Shown: piece by piece, positions 22,153-28,939 of the stretch
Layout of the letters: each line of letters begins with the position of its first letter
Numbering within the stretch: the first letter of the stretch is position 1
Origin: Paeniglutamicibacter psychrophenolicus
GTDB taxonomy: Bacteria; Actinomycetota; Actinomycetes; Actinomycetales; Micrococcaceae
DNA length: 64,000 nt
Direction: 5' to 3'
Assembly (NCBI RefSeq): GCF_017876575.1
Contig: NZ_JAGIOE010000001.1
Coordinates: 2,914,001-2,978,000 of the forward strand
The notes under the pieces: model-generated
Databases searched by the model: none
Told to the model about the DNA's origin: nothing
Seen by the model: the letters and a program-made list of their open reading frames with translations, nothing else
Position numbers and translations under genes: made by a program

Positions 22153-22559
22153 ACCATCGAGTTTCCCTGAATAACTATGCAAGCGCCAAAACAGGCCGAA
22201 AAGTAGTTATGTCAACCAATAGTTATCCCTGCCAACGACGCGGAGGAGCGGCAGAAACACGCAGGTTCCACAGAGATACTCCAGGATTTTCCACTTTTGG
22301 TCGGCGCCTGCCGCCGGCGGGCACCGAAGTCCGTTGGCGCGCTCGGCGCGGGACCACGGGCGGTTGCCGACGCGCCGCACGCCGAAAACGAAAAAAGCGG
22401 TATTTTCGGGGGAGTCGGACACAATTGAGGCAGGCATCTGGATGTGCTGGAATGTGCGGATTTCACCACTTTCAGATCCCTGGGCATTGCGCCGATAATC
22501 TACATTATGTCAAGTTGGCTTTAGGGGGCACTCCCCAGCGAGTGAACTGGGCCCCGAAT
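22153..22559 (-). promoter_or_regulatory. zapE upstream region with three TAGTTAT repeats
   Basis: About 400 bases with no gene. Near zapE the 7-mer ATAACTA occurs at 22171-22177 and, inverted as TAGTTAT, at 22204-22210 and 22220-22226. A minus-strand TTGACA (22210-22215) lies between the last two copies. The copies could be operator sites for a regulator of zapE-def. The rest, up to the transposon, shows nothing I can name. Confidence 0.35.
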
Positions 22560-22564
22560 GTTGT
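22560..22564. repeat. Left copy of the 5-bp target-site duplication (GTTGT)
   Basis: GTTGT directly precedes the transposon's left terminus and is repeated directly after its right terminus at 27645-27649. Five-base duplications are the hallmark of Tn7-like transposition. Confidence 0.85.
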
Positions 22565-22590
22565 TGTCCTGTCTCATTACAGGTGAGGCA
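22565..22590 (+). repeat. Left terminal inverted repeat
   Basis: 26 bases beginning TGTCCTGTCTCATTAC and ending GTGAGGCA. The same 26 bases recur at 27647-27672 as the left end of the older relic element, and in partly matching form as the right end of this element. Confidence 0.88.
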
Positions 22591-22738
22591 ATCTCACTAC
22601 ACCCGAAGCATTAGGTGATTTTGTCTCACTACATCCGAAGCATCCGCTGGTTTTGTCTCACTACACCCGAGGCAAACATGCTTCTGTCTCACTACACCCG
22701 AAGCATCCGCCGCTTTTGTCTCACTACACCCGAAGCAT
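22590..22738 (+). repeat. Left-end array of five transposase-binding repeats, about 32-bp period
   Basis: Five direct copies of a 21- to 22-base unit resembling TGTCTCACTACACCCGAAGC. They start at 22590 (partial), 22622, 22654, 22685 and 22717, so the spacing is 32, 32, 31 and 32 bases. That equals three helical turns and would place bound TnsB on one face of the DNA. The last copy covers the -35 region of the tnsA promoter. Confidence 0.85.
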
Positions 22739-22754
22739 TCGGGCGTTCTCGGCT

Positions 22755-22767
22755 TACACTGGGTGCC
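22755..22767 (+). promoter_or_regulatory. Leaderless promoter of the tns operon
   Basis: TACACT at 22755-22760 ends 7 bases before ATG 22768. The same arrangement is kept in the relic copy (TACACT 27710-27715, ATG 27723). The -35 position falls in the last transposase-binding repeat, which predicts repression by the element's own TnsB. Confidence 0.6.
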
Positions 22768-23535
22768 ATGGGACGCGCGCTGTTGGCGTCCGACGTGGAA
22801 GCCGGGCCCAAGGATCCTGCAGGTTCCCTGATCTTCAGGGAGCAATTTTCCTCCGCCACGACCAGCGACCTTCTGGCGCACTGCTGGGCAACCGACTTCG
22901 AGAACTCCCCGCCGGTTCGCCGCGTTGCCGCGTACAAGGGACAACGCAATTTCTCCGGCCTCTGGTGGTGCGCCTCCACCAACCGGCATGTCGGCTTCGA
23001 GTCCTGGCTGGAACGCGACCACCTGATACGCCTGGATCTTGATGCCAAAGTCACGGGCATTGCCTCCCAGCCCTTCAGGATCAAGCTTCCGAAGCCACTC
23101 CCCCAAACCTGGCACGTTCCCGACTACTTTGTCCGCCGAGCCGACGGCACCTGCCTTGTGATCGATGTCCGACCAGACGCCAGGGTCAAGGCCGAAGACC
23201 AGCTCGTTTTTGATGCCACTGCAAACCTCTGCGCGACGGTGGGATGGGACTACCGCCGCCTGGGAGACCTTCCCTGCGTGGGGCGTGCCAACCGCCACTG
23301 GATTGCTGGATATCGGCATCCACGGTGCCGCAACCAGGAAACGGCCAACGCGGCATTGCGGCGCTTGAACCATGATGGGCCTTCCACCATCAGGGATACA
23401 GCCCAAAGATTGGGTGATCCGGTGCTCGTGCTTCCCACGATTTTCCACCTGATGTGGTGCCAAGAAGTCAAGGTTGACTTGGATTTTCACCGGTTGCACC
23501 TGGACAGCGAGGTTTGGGCAGGCGGGACGCCATGA
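22768..23535 (+). CDS. tnsA: TnsA-like transposase endonuclease subunit
   Basis: 255 residues. TnsA has a restriction-endonuclease fold and cuts the 5' strand ends of Tn7-like elements so that they are fully excised. Candidate active-site residues are Glu78 (GFESWLERD) and Asp119 (HVPDYFV). The third motif, normally E/Q-x-K, appears as D133-V-R135 in CLVIDVRPD. ATG 22768 follows a leaderless promoter. The stop overlaps the tnsB start (ATGA). The family assignment rests on these motifs and on the operon. Confidence 0.85.
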   Translation: MGRALLASDVEAGPKDPAGSLIFREQFSSATTSDLLAHCWATDFENSPPVRRVAAYKGQRNFSGLWWCASTNRHVGFESWLERDHLIRLDLDAKVTGIASQPFRIKLPKPLPQTWHVPDYFVRRADGTCLVIDVRPDARVKAEDQLVFDATANLCATVGWDYRRLGDLPCVGRANRHWIAGYRHPRCRNQETANAALRRLNHDGPSTIRDTAQRLGDPVLVLPTIFHLMWCQEVKVDLDFHRLHLDSEVWAGGTP

Positions 23536-25616
23536 AGCCAATACCCGGGGCGTTGAGCATTGGCCAGGACATCGAACTGCACGGCACCAGGTTCCAGGTG
23601 AATGCCTTTGACGGTGGTGCGGTGGTTCTCTCGGCGCCAGGCTCGGCGCCGGCGATGATCAAGATCGGCGCGCTTTACGCCGATCCAAGCTTCAAGATCC
23701 TTGACCAGCCAAAGGTCCGCCGACGGTTCACCGGATCATCGCCGCTCTTTGATTCCCTGCCGCCCGCCGTCCGGGATCGTGCCCGGTGGCTTGAAGGACA
23801 CATCACCGAGGTGCTGGATGGCGTTGCCCTTAATGAGGACGCCGAGCGCCCGCCTCGGAGCGAATACAGCGTCACCGTGCACTCCTTGCGGCAGCGGGAA
23901 AAGAGCAAATGCGCCGAGTTGAAGCTGTTGGGTGAAGACATCAGTTTCAGCACCTTCCAGCGGCTTCGCATTGCCTATGAGCGCGAAGGCATCATCGGGC
24001 TCACGGATCAACGACTGAGCAGGGCAACGCCCCTGAGCGGGCAAACAGACCCACGGGTCGTCGAGGCCCTCCAAACGATGTTGGAGAGGAACATCCACGA
24101 ATCCTCCGGAACGTTGGACCGCCTGATCCACCAGGTTCGCCATCAACTGGAGGAAGAACATGGGGTTGGCGTGGTGCCCGTTCCTTCCCGGGCCACCTTT
24201 CATCGACTGGTGAAGAAGCTTGCCCAGGGCAGGCATGCCACCGGGTCGGCCCGGACCCGAAGAACCCTGGCCCAGCAACCTGAGACCCCCTTTGGCAGCG
24301 TCTATCCCGTGCGTCCCGGGGAGTTGATGCAGATCGATTCGACTCCCCTGGATGTTGCCATCGAACTTGACGACGGGATCATCGGACGGGTTGAGCTGAC
24401 CGCCTTGGTGGATGTTGCGACCCGCACCATCTGCGCAGCCGTCGTCCAACCCACGACCAAGGCGGTTGATGCGGCGTTGCTCCTGGCCAGGTGCTTGACC
24501 CCGGAGATGATGCGTCCGGGTTGGCCCGAAGCGATCTCGATGGCTGCCTCGGCCCTTCCCTATCGGTCGATGAGGAGCATCGATGAGCGGCTTGAGGGCG
24601 CGGCCGACAAGCCCGTGATCACGCCCGAAACCATTGTCTGCGACCACGGCAAGGCCTACCTTTCGAACACCTTCAAAACAGCGTGCCGGTCCTTGGGGAT
24701 CAGCATTCAACCGGCGCACCCCGATACGCCCACGGACAAGCCCGTTATTGAGCGCACCCTCCAATCCGTGGGGACCTTGTTCTGCCAATATGTCACCGGC
24801 TACCTGGGCTCCTCGGTGGAACGGCGCGGCAAGAATGCCGAGGCCCAGGCGGTCTATTCCCTGGTGGAGATGCAGGATCTTCTGGATGAATGGGTCGTCA
24901 CCGCGTGGCAGAACCGCCCGCACGAGGGACTGCGCGACCCGCTCAGCCCGCAGCGGGTGTTCACGCCCAATGAAAAATATGCGGCGCTGGTCTCGGTGAG
25001 CGGATACGTCCCGGTTCCGTTGGGACCGGATGACTACATCGAGTTGATGCCCGCCGAAGCGCGGGTGATCAACAGCTACGGCGTCAAGATCAGGCATCGC
25101 GTCTATGACAGCACGGAGCTGAATCCCTACCGCGGGCAAGGATCCGGGATCAATGCCTTAAAGGACCGGTGGGAAATACGCTGGGACCCCTACGACGTGG
25201 GCAGGATCTGGGTCCGCAACCACCACGACGGCGGGTGGATCACCGCCTATTGGCGCCAGCTCCATGCATCGCCCCAACCCTTTGGTGAGGATGTCTGGGA
25301 ACGCGGCCGCCAAATCGTTGCCACCCGCACCGGGAACAGGGCATCGGAGGAGGCCATCAAGGCGGCCGTGGACGGGCTGCTGGCACGGGCAGCGGAGCCT
25401 TCTCCACGGGCCAGGAAGCCATCGGCGCAGGACCGGCGAACCGTGGCCAGAAACAAGGCCACCAGCAAGCACGACTGGGCACCGCCAGAGGCCGAAAAAC
25501 CAACACCGCCCATGGACAAGACAGCTCCAGAGAATGATTTGTCCGACGCTGAACTCGCGAAGATCGTTCCCTTGAAAATCTATGACGCCAGGGCCGAGGC
25601 GGAACGATGGTGGTAA
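23532..25616 (+). CDS. tnsB: TnsB-like DDE transposase
   Basis: 694 residues. The rve/DDE catalytic core is clear: Asp269 in MQIDSTPLDV, Asp371 in CDHGKAYLSNTF and Glu407 in DKPVIERTLQSVG, with 35 residues between the second Asp and the Glu. N-terminal helix-turn-helix regions (LRQREKSKCAELKLLGEDIS, REGIIGLTDQRLSR) should bind the end repeats. The C-terminal tail of about 100 residues is charged and contains a TnsC-contacting-type segment. TnsB joins the 3' ends to target DNA. It overlaps tnsA by 4 bases and tnsC by 10 bases. Confidence 0.95.
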   Translation: MKPIPGALSIGQDIELHGTRFQVNAFDGGAVVLSAPGSAPAMIKIGALYADPSFKILDQPKVRRRFTGSSPLFDSLPPAVRDRARWLEGHITEVLDGVALNEDAERPPRSEYSVTVHSLRQREKSKCAELKLLGEDISFSTFQRLRIAYEREGIIGLTDQRLSRATPLSGQTDPRVVEALQTMLERNIHESSGTLDRLIHQVRHQLEEEHGVGVVPVPSRATFHRLVKKLAQGRHATGSARTRRTLAQQPETPFGSVYPVRPGELMQIDSTPLDVAIELDDGIIGRVELTALVDVATRTICAAVVQPTTKAVDAALLLARCLTPEMMRPGWPEAISMAASALPYRSMRSIDERLEGAADKPVITPETIVCDHGKAYLSNTFKTACRSLGISIQPAHPDTPTDKPVIERTLQSVGTLFCQYVTGYLGSSVERRGKNAEAQAVYSLVEMQDLLDEWVVTAWQNRPHEGLRDPLSPQRVFTPNEKYAALVSVSGYVPVPLGPDDYIELMPAEARVINSYGVKIRHRVYDSTELNPYRGQGSGINALKDRWEIRWDPYDVGRIWVRNHHDGGWITAYWRQLHASPQPFGEDVWERGRQIVATRTGNRASEEAIKAAVDGLLARAAEPSPRARKPSAQDRRTVARNKATSKHDWAPPEAEKPTPPMDKTAPENDLSDAELAKIVPLKIYDARAEAERWW

Positions 25617-26617
25617 TCAACAACCTCCCCACCGACAGCCGTGCACCAACGACGACCCTCGAGGGCTGGCGCAGTTTCGTGGAGGACGAACCACACGCCT
25701 TCGAGCTCCTGCCCGAGCGCCAGTTCAAGGCATTGCCGGTGGCCCGACGCGAACTCTATGACGAAAACCGGATCAGCTACCACTCCGATCTCGGCGTCAT
25801 CCAAACCTCCACGGTCCGCAACATCATCCACCAGGGCCGGCTGCTGACCATGCTCAACCAACGCGAAATCAGTGCCCGGCGGGGAATGATCGTCTCGGGT
25901 CCGTGGGCCTCGGGGAAAACCACGGCCATCAAGCAACTCGGAAGGACCCATGAGCTGCGGATCAACCTGAGATACCCGGACCAGAACCGTATCCCGGTCG
26001 TTTACATCACCACCCCGCCCAAGGGATCCCCCCGCAAGCTGGCCAGCGAATTCGCCAACTTCCTGGGCCTGCCCCAACGCCCACGCCACAACGTCACCGA
26101 CATCACCGAAGCGGTCTGCCAGGTCCTGACCGCGGCACGCACCGACCTGGTCATCGTCGATGAGATCCACAACCTGAACCTGGCCACCAGCGCCGGGGAA
26201 GACATGTCCGACCACCTGAAATACTTCACCGAACACATGCCGGCAACCTTCATCTATGCCGGGATCAACGTGGAAAACTCGGGTCTCTTTGCGGGGCTTC
26301 GCGGACGCCAGATCTCTGCCCGCTCGATCCTCACCACCACCGGACCCTTCCCCTACGGCGAGGAATGGCAATCGCTGGTCGCCACCCTGGAAGCCGCGCT
26401 GCGCCTGCACCGGCACGCGCCCGGCACCCTGACGCGCGAGGCCAAATACCTGCATTACCGCACCAGCGGAGGGATCAGCAGCCTCTCGCACCTCGTACGG
26501 CAAGCCGCCATCAGCGCCATCCTGACCGGAAAGGAGCGCATCGACCGGGCACTGATGGAGGCCACCACCATCGACCATGCAGCCGAATCACACATCCACG
26601 GTGCGGCCAGGCCATGA
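25607..26617 (+). CDS. tnsC: TnsC-like AAA+ ATPase, transposition regulator
   Basis: 336 residues. Walker A is GPWASGKT (98-105) and Walker B is LVIVDEIHNL with Asp185 and Glu186. TnsC-type ATPases polymerise on target DNA, connect the target selector to TnsA/TnsB and provide target immunity. The segment TTPPKGSPRKLASEFANFLG (135-154) is also found, altered, in the relic at 27723-28331. The stop overlaps the tniQ start (ATGA). Confidence 0.93.
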   Translation: MVVINNLPTDSRAPTTTLEGWRSFVEDEPHAFELLPERQFKALPVARRELYDENRISYHSDLGVIQTSTVRNIIHQGRLLTMLNQREISARRGMIVSGPWASGKTTAIKQLGRTHELRINLRYPDQNRIPVVYITTPPKGSPRKLASEFANFLGLPQRPRHNVTDITEAVCQVLTAARTDLVIVDEIHNLNLATSAGEDMSDHLKYFTEHMPATFIYAGINVENSGLFAGLRGRQISARSILTTTGPFPYGEEWQSLVATLEAALRLHRHAPGTLTREAKYLHYRTSGGISSLSHLVRQAAISAILTGKERIDRALMEATTIDHAAESHIHGAARP

Positions 26618-27471
26618 ACCCCACCATGCCGGCCCCGGCTACCCTTCATCCTCTGGGCATACGGCCGCTTCCCATCAGGATCCGCTTGTTTCCGGATGAA
26701 ACCACCAAGTCGTTTCTGCGCCGACTGGAAGACGCCAACGCGGTGCGTCCGGGCGAGCTGAGGAAGGCCCTGCAGAAGATCCCCGGGTCCTGGATCGAGA
26801 CGATCTCGCTTTGGTGCGACCAACCACTTGTTTCCCTCGACTACGCCATGCCGCAGCTCGGGTTGCAGCAACATGGCCTGATCAACCCGAGGCACTTTGC
26901 CGGCCGCCGGGCCCACCGCGTCCACGGACTTGCCTGCCACCGCTGCGCCTTGGCACACGATGCGGGCAGTTTCGTGGAAATCTACACGACCCATCAACAC
27001 GCCATCTGTCCCAAGCACGGTCTCTGGATCGGCGAAGGAACTGCCACCCCGGAAGACCAGCTATCGATCGGTGCCTGCCCGGAAATACCCGCCGCCTGGC
27101 ACCACCACAAAAATATCATCCAACGCCAGGGGCACACCCGCACCCGCAAGGCCTTTGAAACCTCAAGAACCATCAACTGGCAGTGGTACGACCAATTCCA
27201 CCACTTCACCCACACAGCCGGCTTCTATGACGTTCTCGCCAGCAGCGGGTCCCACAGGGCAAGCCAGCAAGCACTGGTTGCCGCGTCGCTCTATCCCGCC
27301 ATCGTGGAACTAACCGCGGCCCTGGCCAGCCCCTACTGGGCCAAGATTGCGCACTCGGAGCACCCCGAGGCCTTCCTGGACCGCGTCAGCACCAGCATGG
27401 CCGAAGGCTGGCGGCCCGCCGGGGCCCACGATCCCCTCCGCAGCTGGATGGAACGAAACTGGGACACCTGA
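26614..27471 (+). CDS. tniQ: TniQ/TnsD-like target-selection protein
   Basis: 285 residues. The N-terminal TniQ segment is visible (PIRIRLFPDETTKSFLRRLE). A zinc-binding arrangement follows: CHRC (108-111) and CPKH (132-135). Short TniQ proteins recognise or adapt to the target in Tn7-like elements, some by binding a specific att site and some by joining another targeting complex. No second tniQ or CRISPR effector is present, so this protein alone should direct insertion. It ends 173 bases before the right end. Confidence 0.9.
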   Translation: MNPTMPAPATLHPLGIRPLPIRIRLFPDETTKSFLRRLEDANAVRPGELRKALQKIPGSWIETISLWCDQPLVSLDYAMPQLGLQQHGLINPRHFAGRRAHRVHGLACHRCALAHDAGSFVEIYTTHQHAICPKHGLWIGEGTATPEDQLSIGACPEIPAAWHHHKNIIQRQGHTRTRKAFETSRTINWQWYDQFHHFTHTAGFYDVLASSGSHRASQQALVAASLYPAIVELTAALASPYWAKIAHSEHPEAFLDRVSTSMAEGWRPAGAHDPLRSWMERNWDT

Positions 27472-27542
27472 ACCCGCGGATCCGGCCCCAAACGGCACAG
27501 GGAAAGACACCGCGGTGCCCAAAAACCAGACATCCTCCCAAA

Positions 27543-27644
27543 TGCCTCAGGTGTAATGAGACAAACCCCGATTTCCATCTCATTACATCTGAGGCAACCG
27601 CGGAAACCCGGGCCCATTTGCCTCACTTTAAACGAAAAAGGACA
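27543..27644. repeat. Right-end transposase-binding sites and terminal repeat
   Basis: Three sites. One inverted unit lies at 27543-27563 (TGCCTCAGGTGTAATGAGACA), one direct unit at 27578-27596 and the terminal 26 bases at 27619-27644, ending AAGGACA. The right end thus differs from the left in number, spacing and orientation of sites, as in Tn7, where end asymmetry controls orientation of insertion. Confidence 0.8.
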
Positions 27645-27649
27645 GTTGT
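27645..27649. repeat. Right copy of the 5-bp target-site duplication (GTTGT)
   Basis: GTTGT follows the right terminus. Its last three bases are also the first three bases (TGT) of the older element that starts at 27647, so the insertion hit the tip of that element. Confidence 0.85.
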
Positions 27650-28331
27650 CCTGTCTCATTACAGGTGAGGCACTCTCACTACACCCGCAGCATCTGGGTG
27701 TTTTTCTTTTACACTGGGTGCCATGGGACGCGCACTGTTGGCGTCCGACGTAGAAGCCGGGCCCAAGGATCCTGCCGGCTCCCTGATCTACAGGGAGCAA
27801 TTTTCCTCCGCCACAACCAGCGGCCGAGAGTCAGATTCCTCGAAGATTCCGTTCGAAGATGGCCCCCCAATCCACAACGTCACCGTCTCCACTGGCCAAC
27901 ACAAGTTTGCGGGTTCGTCGTGGGCGACGAATCAGCACCAGGTCGGGTTTGACTCTTGGTGCGAACGAGACCAACTGTTCCTGCTGGACGTTGATTCCGA
28001 AGTTACGGGCTTGGCGACCCAACCGTTCAGACTCACCATGCCAAGGATGCCCTGTCGACGCGAGATTAGTGACCATCGCGTCCAGGTCGTGTCCGACTCG
28101 TGGGCTTCCGGAATTAGAGCCACCATCATGCACCTGTGCGCTACACACGAGCTTCTGGCCAGGCACAAATATCCGACTTCACACAACGGGTTCCCAGTCG
28201 CCTGCTCCACCACTCCCCCGAAAGTATCCCCCGGGAAGTTGGCCAGCGAGTTCGCGGACTTCCTCGGCCCATCCCAAAGCCCCCGGCAAAACGTCACCGA
28301 TCAGCGCAACGTGTCAATGTCGCACTGTTGA
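27647..28331 (+). mobile_element. Relic of an older, related Tn7-like element
   Basis: It begins with the same 26 terminal bases as the intact element. One binding repeat follows (27672-27693) instead of five, then TACACT and an ATG 7 bases later, then a tnsA-tnsC chimeric frame. tnsB, tniQ and any right end are missing. I could not find a matching right terminus before the RibD-type gene at 28355, so the right boundary is uncertain. Confidence 0.8.
27723..28331 (+). pseudogene. tnsA'-tnsC' chimeric relic frame
   Basis: A 202-residue open frame. Residues 1-33 are almost identical to TnsA of the neighbouring element; residues 34 to about 112 are a diverged TnsA (VGFDSWCERDQLFLLDVDSE). From about residue 113 it matches TnsC residues 86-168 (WASGIRATIMHL, TTPPKVSPGKLASEFADFLG, NVTD). 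The Walker A lysine of TnsC is lost (GPWASGKTT has become SDSWASGIRA). A deletion that joined the two genes in frame explains the structure. The product should not work as TnsA or as an ATPase; whether it interferes with the intact system is unknown. Confidence 0.8.
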
Positions 28332-28354: not shown

Positions 28355-28939
28355 ATGCGTGTTCTGGTCGTGAATCACGTCAGTCTCGACGGAGTTCTGC
28401 AAAGTCCGGGGCGAGCCGACGAAGATACCCGTGACGGTTTCCGGCACGGCGGCTGGGCCGAACAGGACAACGACCCGGCGATGCGTGCCGCCATGGGCGA
28501 GCGGATGGGTCAAGACTTCTCCTGGCTTTTTGGCCGACGCAGCTACGACGACATGCTCACCCACTGGAACCGGGTCGGCGGACCCTTCAAAGACGGCCTA
28601 AACCAGACAAGGAAATACGTCGCCTCCTCCACCCCCGACGCCGAACTCCCCTGGCCGAACTCCACGCTGCTGAGCGGCGACATTCCCGCTAAGGTGGCTG
28701 CGCTACGTGAGCAGCCCGGTGGCAACCTGGTAATCATGGGCAGCGGTCAACTGATCCGTTCCCTGCTCCCGCACGGTCTCGTCGACGAGCTGCTTCTCAT
28801 GATTCACCCGCTCGTGCTCGGCTCCGGCCACCGCCTGTTCGGTCCGGACGATGAGGCGCACCGGATGAGGCTGGTCGCCTGCACCCCCACCGCCACGGGA
28901 GTGCTGATGGCGACATACCAACCGAACCAGCTGGCGTGA
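28355..28939 (+). CDS. Dihydrofolate reductase family protein (RibD C-terminal domain)
   Basis: 194 residues of the RibD-C/DHFR-like fold: MRVLVVNHVSLDGVLQSPG at the start, LFGRRSYDDMLTHW, GGNLVIMGSGQLIRSLLPHGLVDEL in the NADPH-binding region and HPLVLGSGHRLFG near the end. AAGGAG lies 7 bases before ATG 28355. It would be an NADPH-dependent reductase of unknown substrate. Three relatives occur elsewhere in the window (at 41697, a pseudogene, 50349 and 52146). Confidence 0.88.
   Translation: MRVLVVNHVSLDGVLQSPGRADEDTRDGFRHGGWAEQDNDPAMRAAMGERMGQDFSWLFGRRSYDDMLTHWNRVGGPFKDGLNQTRKYVASSTPDAELPWPNSTLLSGDIPAKVAALREQPGGNLVIMGSGQLIRSLLPHGLVDELLLMIHPLVLGSGHRLFGPDDEAHRMRLVACTPTATGVLMATYQPNQLA

Follow-up and report, generated by a model that had tools for sequence, protein, structure and literature searches.

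What decided where this transposon landed? A 64,000-nt stretch of the Paeniglutamicibacter psychrophenolicus chromosome (the window; contig NZ_JAGIOE010000001.1, positions 2,914,001 to 2,978,000) holds a 5,080-bp Tn7-like element with the genes tnsA, tnsB, tnsC and tniQ, spanning positions 22565-27644. A first, sequence-only reading of the window observed that the insertion is not at glmS and pointed instead to the region upstream of zapE. The first part of this stands, but the target is better sought at dif, which lies 49 bp from the element junction; the junction is on the XerD-arm side. dif is nearly universal on circular bacterial chromosomes, where it is the site at which XerCD separates joined chromosome copies (chromosome-dimer resolution), and it is normally occupied. 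We consider it very probable that the compact transposon uses dif as its attachment site, with TniQ and TnsC recognising dif or Xer-bound dif and inserting 35-61 bp outside the XerD arm. Genomes, contigs, loci and genera are named below by their handles in the analysis (G, C, L and g numbers; the window genome is G000).

The element and the neighbouring dif site

The features on which the argument depends are listed by window position.

22488-22515, + strand: putative chromosomal dif, with XerC arm TGCGCCGATAA, centre TCTACA and XerD arm TTATGTCAAGT
22516-22564, + strand: 49-bp spacer from dif to the element, closing in the left GTTGT duplication
22560-22564, + strand: left copy of the GTTGT target duplication
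22565-22738, + strand: left end, with the TGTCCT terminus and six TnsB-like sites
22565-22590: terminus of the left end, TGTCCTGTCTCATTACAGGTGAGGCA
22768-23535, + strand: tnsA, actinobacterial TnsA-like endonuclease (NF033179, TnsA_like_Actin, E 8.4e-74, over cut-off)
23532-25616, + strand: tnsB, DDE transposase (Mu-transpos_C, E 4e-10, over cut-off)
25607-26617, + strand: tnsC, AAA ATPase of the TniB family (TniB, E 3.5e-18, over cut-off)
26614-27471, + strand: tniQ, 285 aa, presumed target selector (TniQ, E 2.7e-4, below the Pfam cut-off)
27543-27644, - strand: right end, with TnsB-like sites and the ACA-3' terminus
27619-27644: terminus of the right end, reading inward, TGTCCTTTTTCGTTTAAAGTGAGGCA
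27645-27649, + strand: right copy of GTTGT, whose last three bases are the first three of an older element's left end
27647-28301, + strand: what is left of the older, related element, namely its left end and tnsA codons 1-123, joined by an internal deletion to tnsC codons 82-165

The assignment of 22488-22515 to dif is drawn from sequence, copy number and position. The motif is present in 15 of 15 genomes of the genus, and in 376 of 395 family genomes a dif pattern allowing at most one mismatch matches at least once, the window genome having one match. On the 4.824-Mb chromosome a DnaA domain is encoded at 0.609 Mb and dif lies at 2.936 Mb, 0.48 of the way round and approximately opposite dnaA. 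One XerD over the cut-off was found in the window genome. The zapE-side flank of dif also matches in G004, G003 and G010, over more than 340 nt. Which arm belongs to XerC and which to XerD we take from E. coli dif and from the description of dif in PMC10132070.

The genes are those of a Tn7-like element: a TnsA endonuclease, a DDE transposase of the TnsB/Mu type, a TnsC/TniB ATPase and a selector of the TniQ/TnsD family. The ATG starts of tnsA and tnsB were chosen by us. Two Pfam TnsA models also match TnsA, below their cut-offs. In TnsB the acidic columns D269, D371 and E407 are invariant in an alignment of six rows, and by analogy we take them to be the catalytic residues; the IS481, IS21 and IS3 models gave partial matches far under the cut-off and were rejected. 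The window genome has one tnsB of this kind, a second match being weak (27% over about 100 residues). No further forward frame of 200 aa or more was found inside the element. At its boundaries the 26-bp ends agree at 20 of 26 positions and have TGT...ACA termini (for one random pair of 26-mers, the chance of this identity is P ~4e-8); such ends, several TnsB sites and a 5-bp duplication are likewise those of Tn7-like transposons. The observation made in the sequence-only reading, namely four overlapping frames in 5,080 bp with 20/26 ends and GTTGT on either side, was confirmed, and its description of the element as Tn7-like, free of cargo and flanked by a 5-bp duplication was borne out by the protein families, the frames, the ends and the GTTGT repeats.

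The location at dif could also be explained by XerCD recombination at dif without transposition, in the manner of the IMEX elements, and elements exploiting Xer are known. The hallmark of an IMEX, however, is a dif-like core at both junctions. Here no dif core was seen at either junction; the boundary 49 bp away consists of transposon ends with 5-bp repeats, the genome has only its single dif match, and the four genes include no site-specific recombinase. We regard this explanation as close to impossible.

The earlier picture of a bounded element was right about the duplication and overlooked an older, decayed relative that abuts it. A second left end, with repeats D1 and D3 88-89% identical, starts at 27647, directly after the right junction, and the right GTTGT therefore consists of GT followed by the three bases that open the older end; the newer element has landed astride the older one's outer tip. 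In the remnant, tnsA codons 1-123 are fused to tnsC codons 82-165 and the similarity stops near 28301; no right end of the older element was found. The empty site in a related strain that the sequence-only reading looked to exists in the sister genome G003, which carries a matching remnant beside dif and lacks the 5-kb element. With the window flanks joined through a single GTTGT, the alignment to G003 runs across the junction for 523 nt at 80%, and the duplication is thus real; further to the right the two genomes agree at 85% over 761 nt. The open frames, the perfect duplication and this pre-insertion locus make the suggested recent activity plausible, as far as sequence can speak to it. Directly to the right of the array, a frame at 28355-28939, dihydrofolate-reductase-like by eye, aligns with the same place in G003.

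Recurrence of insertions beside dif

Relatives were sought by TnsB, with matches in 12 of 59 genomes (E 0.001), at least 36 of 395 family genomes (E 1e-30) and at least 10 of 396 phylum genomes (E 1e-20), the window genome being counted each time, and at 18 loci in a search of genome contigs. Two candidates were scored per genome in the family and phylum searches and in the left-end search reported below, and these counts are therefore lower bounds. A spacing table built on the XerD side of dif holds 21 left ends, two of them from G008, at 35-61 bp from dif; 19 of the 21 lie at 35-49 bp. Apart from the window genus, eight genera are represented: g6, g8, g10, g13, g16 and g277 within the family, and two that belong to other families (G361, G049). 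Tn7-like elements typically sit at a nearly constant distance from their attachment site and in one orientation to it, and here that site is dif.

Within the genus, 11 of 15 XerD-side flanks have a left end, ten recognised by window-type TnsB sites and the one in G004 being the end of another element type. None of the 15 XerC-side flanks has window-type TnsB sites within 260 bp, a motif that could miss ends of other types. The dif sites of G002, G005, G007 and G012 are seemingly empty. In a scan upstream of 56 TnsB loci in both orientations, the XerD arm of dif faces the element in 12 and the XerC arm in 1, with 1 more that is weak (3 mismatches); G004 was added to the XerD-arm group through overlapping contigs. 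A search for the exact dif and left-end pattern in 337 genomes of the order returned the window genome alone, the pattern being too strict for diverged ends. It might be argued that the terminus, where dif is located, merely tolerates insertions or is generally preferred by such enzymes; Tn7 itself is said, in the title of a report by Peters and Craig from 2000 that PMC11406308 cites, to insert also where replication terminates. Insertions spaced 35-61 bp from dif in a constant orientation, with none of 15 on the opposite side in the genus, are too precise for a regional preference, which we judge very unlikely.

A comparison of 13 targets shows which part of the neighbourhood is shared. Identity is 0.83 and 0.89 in the arms of dif and 0.79 in its centre, and 0.24-0.33 in all flank bins on either side: between targets, conservation is confined to dif and the flanks are at chance. 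G008 extends this to a second dif-like site (L172, L212; G008:C29 near 81338), 54 kb from its primary dif, with intact arms, the centre ACGAGA and other flanks, which has its own left end 43 bp away. That the region upstream of zapE is the attachment site had in its favour that zapE adjoins the element in the window; with flanks that are unconserved on both sides of dif, and different again at the second site of G008, it was rejected as a target, and we leave it hardly any probability.

Complete elements were delimited in several genomes. Five are at chromosomal dif, each with a perfect 5-bp duplication.

Window: 5,080 bp, GTTGT, at dif
G571: 4,967 bp, ACGGC, at dif
G789: 5,019 bp, GCCCG, at dif
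G004: 4,952 bp, GTGTC, at dif, pieced together from three contigs
G779: 5,346 bp, AATTG, at dif, on the XerC side
G796: 4,845 bp, AGAAC, away from chromosomal dif, with a weak dif-like site only
G797: a 4,867-bp contig starting and stopping at transposon ends

In all seven, forward frames of at least 200 aa fill the element in the four-gene layout and leave no space for cargo. The earlier suggestion that the window element may be among the smallest of its kind does not single out this copy: six relatives of 4,845-5,346 bp have the four-gene layout, and compactness is therefore a trait of the group. The contigs of L139 (G797:C42, 4,867 bp) and L140 (G004:C58, 4,952 bp) are bounded exactly by the transposon ends, as would happen if the sequenced DNA contained several copies or sites, and the dif contig of G797 stops about 36 bp past the XerC arm (L163).

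Other junctions can be compared with empty sites in the same way as that of the window. The joined flanks of G571 align with G779 at 80% over 144 nt across the junction, and those of G789 align across it with G803 (79% over 487 nt) and G656 (80% over 136 nt); a shorter G789 query matches G803 at 96% over 68 nt, an alignment that stops 16 nt before the junction. G004 has two elements in a row beside dif, the newer next to dif and the older, window-type one beyond it, and when the newer element and one GTGTC are removed the older left end is 48 bp from dif. The stacks in G000 and G004 are explained by repeated landing at one place beside dif.

A quick maximum-likelihood tree was computed from 55 TnsB rows that we chose from the loci, leaving out the duplicate L062 and fragments or near-copies such as L009, L084, L086, L087 and L092-L094. 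All five members of the clade of the window element are at dif. In a second clade, of ten rows, seven are at dif, contig ends cut off two more (L139, L064), and L138 lies elsewhere; the two clades with most cases together have 15 rows, 12 of them at dif, two cut and one elsewhere. L129, from another family and apart in the tree, is also at dif, as is L136 (G779), on the XerC side. The dif-adjacent TnsB proteins belong to several lineages and are 36-67% identical to that of the window.

These data bear on the proposal that a single ancestral insertion near dif, inherited vertically and decaying, accounts for all copies. Some copies are inherited: G014 and G009 have a common flank and remnant, and the older remnant of the window matches that of G003. 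Against it as a general account stand the several TnsB lineages at dif, spacings and duplicated 5-mers that vary between copies, empty dif sites in the same genera, junction-spanning empty sites in near relatives with the flanks of the occupied ones, and the use of the second dif-like site in G008. We give it a very small probability.

Copies away from dif and the proposed mechanism

Several observations weigh against dif as the target of the whole group. Left-end matches numbered at least 24: 12 are at primary dif, among them G004:C38, assigned by overlapping contigs; the second dif-like site has 1, and the other 11, which include pairs of matches at one place, are elsewhere. The window genome itself has one further off-dif copy, L024 (G000:C1:1993476-1993662). 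In the other tree rows, mostly from Streptomyces, Micromonosporaceae and a more distant clade, dif was absent from the stretches fetched. The complete element of G796 is away from dif, and its weak site (3 mismatches) was excluded from the counts. G779 has its element on the XerC side, at a distance from dif of 39 bp by our count. Among the matches listed for g10, 1 of 30 dif loci has a left end (G789, by eye); the g10 genomes G583 and G779 are likewise occupied, outside those 30 loci. Left ends were selected by visual inspection, and the choice is least certain in G513, G361, G029, G679 and G049. A right end with a matching 5-mer was not found in the stretches of G583, G643, G013, G679, G513, G655 and G361, whose elements may be decayed or longer. 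TnsB matched in 177 of 72,556 plasmid records, and the 12 plasmid regions examined among these had no dif within 4 mismatches and no common target. Lastly, an AlphaFold2 model of TniQ from a three-row alignment reached a pLDDT of 38 and a pTM of 0.25.

Other targets may exist, as ends were also seen near a gene for an M23-type metallopeptidase. This gene is near the elements L196 and L197 on two Rhodococcus plasmids and near the end L210 (G753:C5), which an FtsK-family gene adjoins too; its neighbourhood is possibly a second recurrent target. The decayed left ends L024, L179, L182 and L183 have a common flank with a palindrome resembling a TetR operator (by eye) and probably go back to a single inherited insertion away from dif. 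The plasmid relatives L191, L192 and L193 adjoin integrase genes or parAB, or belong to a cluster with several sets of TnsA/TnsB genes. That the G796 contig is a plasmid was considered and not established: 7 of 10 scanned proteins match Pfam and look metabolic or biosynthetic.

The place, spacing, side and orientation of the insertions, their duplications, the pre-insertion sites, the several TnsB lineages and genera and the stacking of newer on older elements were observed directly. The mechanism that we propose from them follows the division of labour in Tn7 among TnsA, TnsB, TnsC and the selector. By this analogy, TnsB would bind the arrays in the ends, TnsA and TnsB would cut and join the DNA, TnsC would link them to the selector, and TniQ would pick the site. 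TniQ with TnsC would recognise dif, or the Xer recombinase bound there, and this target complex would guide the TnsA-TnsB transposome to a point usually 35-61 bp beyond the XerD arm, where the element would be inserted with the left end facing dif, a 5-bp duplication and dif left intact.

We infer that TniQ is the selector because it is the only protein of the TniQ/TnsD type in the element. The TniQ model is matched by all five members of the window-type alignment, the window included (best 1.6e-7), and weakly (0.022) by one of five TniQ-like proteins of the second clade; a search of PDB sequences with a TniQ profile gave nothing up to E 1. In a Streptomyces sister clade (L081, L089) the TniQ-like frame runs on into a different C-terminal tail, helix-turn-helix-like by eye, which suggests exchangeable selectors.

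Whether the signal would be Xer-bound dif is, in our estimate, an evenly balanced matter; the bare dif sequence is a possibility to which we lend somewhat less than even credence. The Xer-bound version is favoured by the precedent of Tn5053, by the suggestion of Harmer et al. on ISAjo2 and XerC (both described below) and by the normal occupancy of dif. A more specific form, offered tentatively, is that the element senses the XerCD-dif complex through TniQ (or TnsC) docking on XerD, and that other plasmid sites bound by Xer or resolvase serve as a second class of targets for spread. If this is true, a Tn7-type transposon uses the chromosome-dimer resolution machine as a landing beacon, a tyrosine-recombinase counterpart of the resolvase sensing by Tn5053. 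It can be asked in testable form how TniQ, at 285 aa, locates a 28-bp site normally bound by XerC and XerD. With dif in 376 of 395 family genomes, the element would have a safe site in almost any host of the group, and a dif-directed system of 5 kb without cargo could offer an uncomplicated basis for site-specific insertion tools in Actinobacteria.

Comparison with known systems

Tn7 (TnsABCD, attTn7 downstream of glmS) resembles the window element in its proteins (TnsA, TnsB, TnsC and a selector of the TniQ family), in the TGT...ACA ends and their several TnsB sites, in the 5-bp duplication, and in lying at a nearly constant distance from the attachment site, in one orientation. The window element differs in having one short TniQ (285 aa), neither TnsE nor cargo, and dif rather than a gene end as its site. 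It is the left end that faces this site, whereas in Tn7 it is the right end.

The Tn5053/Tn402 family shares the single TniQ and the use of a resolution site as target, and the res target of Tn5053 is reportedly, by the title of a 1999 report by Minakhina that PMC11406308 cites, sensed when the cognate resolvase is bound to it. These elements lack TnsA and resolve cointegrates with their own recombinase; the window element has tnsA and no resolvase or other recombinase gene, and its target belongs to tyrosine recombinases (dif) instead of a serine resolvase (res). In the part of PMC11406308 available, the family is described as res site hunters, and the attachment sites named for Tn7-type elements are glmS, comM, yhiN, parE, tRNA and res. 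A TnsABC-TniQ system at dif would extend these to the chromosome's own resolution site.

By description, and not by placement in their tree, the window element possibly belongs to clade 2 of the Tn7-like transposons of Benler et al. 2021, which the available part of that paper (PMC8649781) presents as dominated by Actinobacteria and as having no experimentally characterised member. The whole word dif has no occurrence in PMC8649781; dif, XerC and XerD as whole words have none in PMC10293859, nor dif and XerD in PMC11406308. No Tn7-like element at dif was found in the literature searched, which was partial and largely without subscription papers and bioRxiv preprints. As far as that literature goes, the dif target is new for the Tn7-like family, and dif hunting itself is known from insertion sequences of the IS1202 family.

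These insertion sequences (ISAjo2, ISAba71) are called "dif site hunters" in the available part of PMC10132070, where they are found in fixed orientation beside pdif and dif and where Harmer et al. suggest that the ISAjo2 transposase may contact XerC. As described there, they share with the window element the insertion beside dif in a fixed orientation, the TGT...ACA ends, the 5-bp duplication and a TnsB-like transposase, and they differ in having a single gene in 1.5 kb, in lying 5 bp from the XerC arm and in lacking TnsA, TnsC and TniQ. The window element has four genes in 5.08 kb and lies 49 bp from the XerD arm. The same target as that of the IS1202 family would thus be reached through a different architecture.

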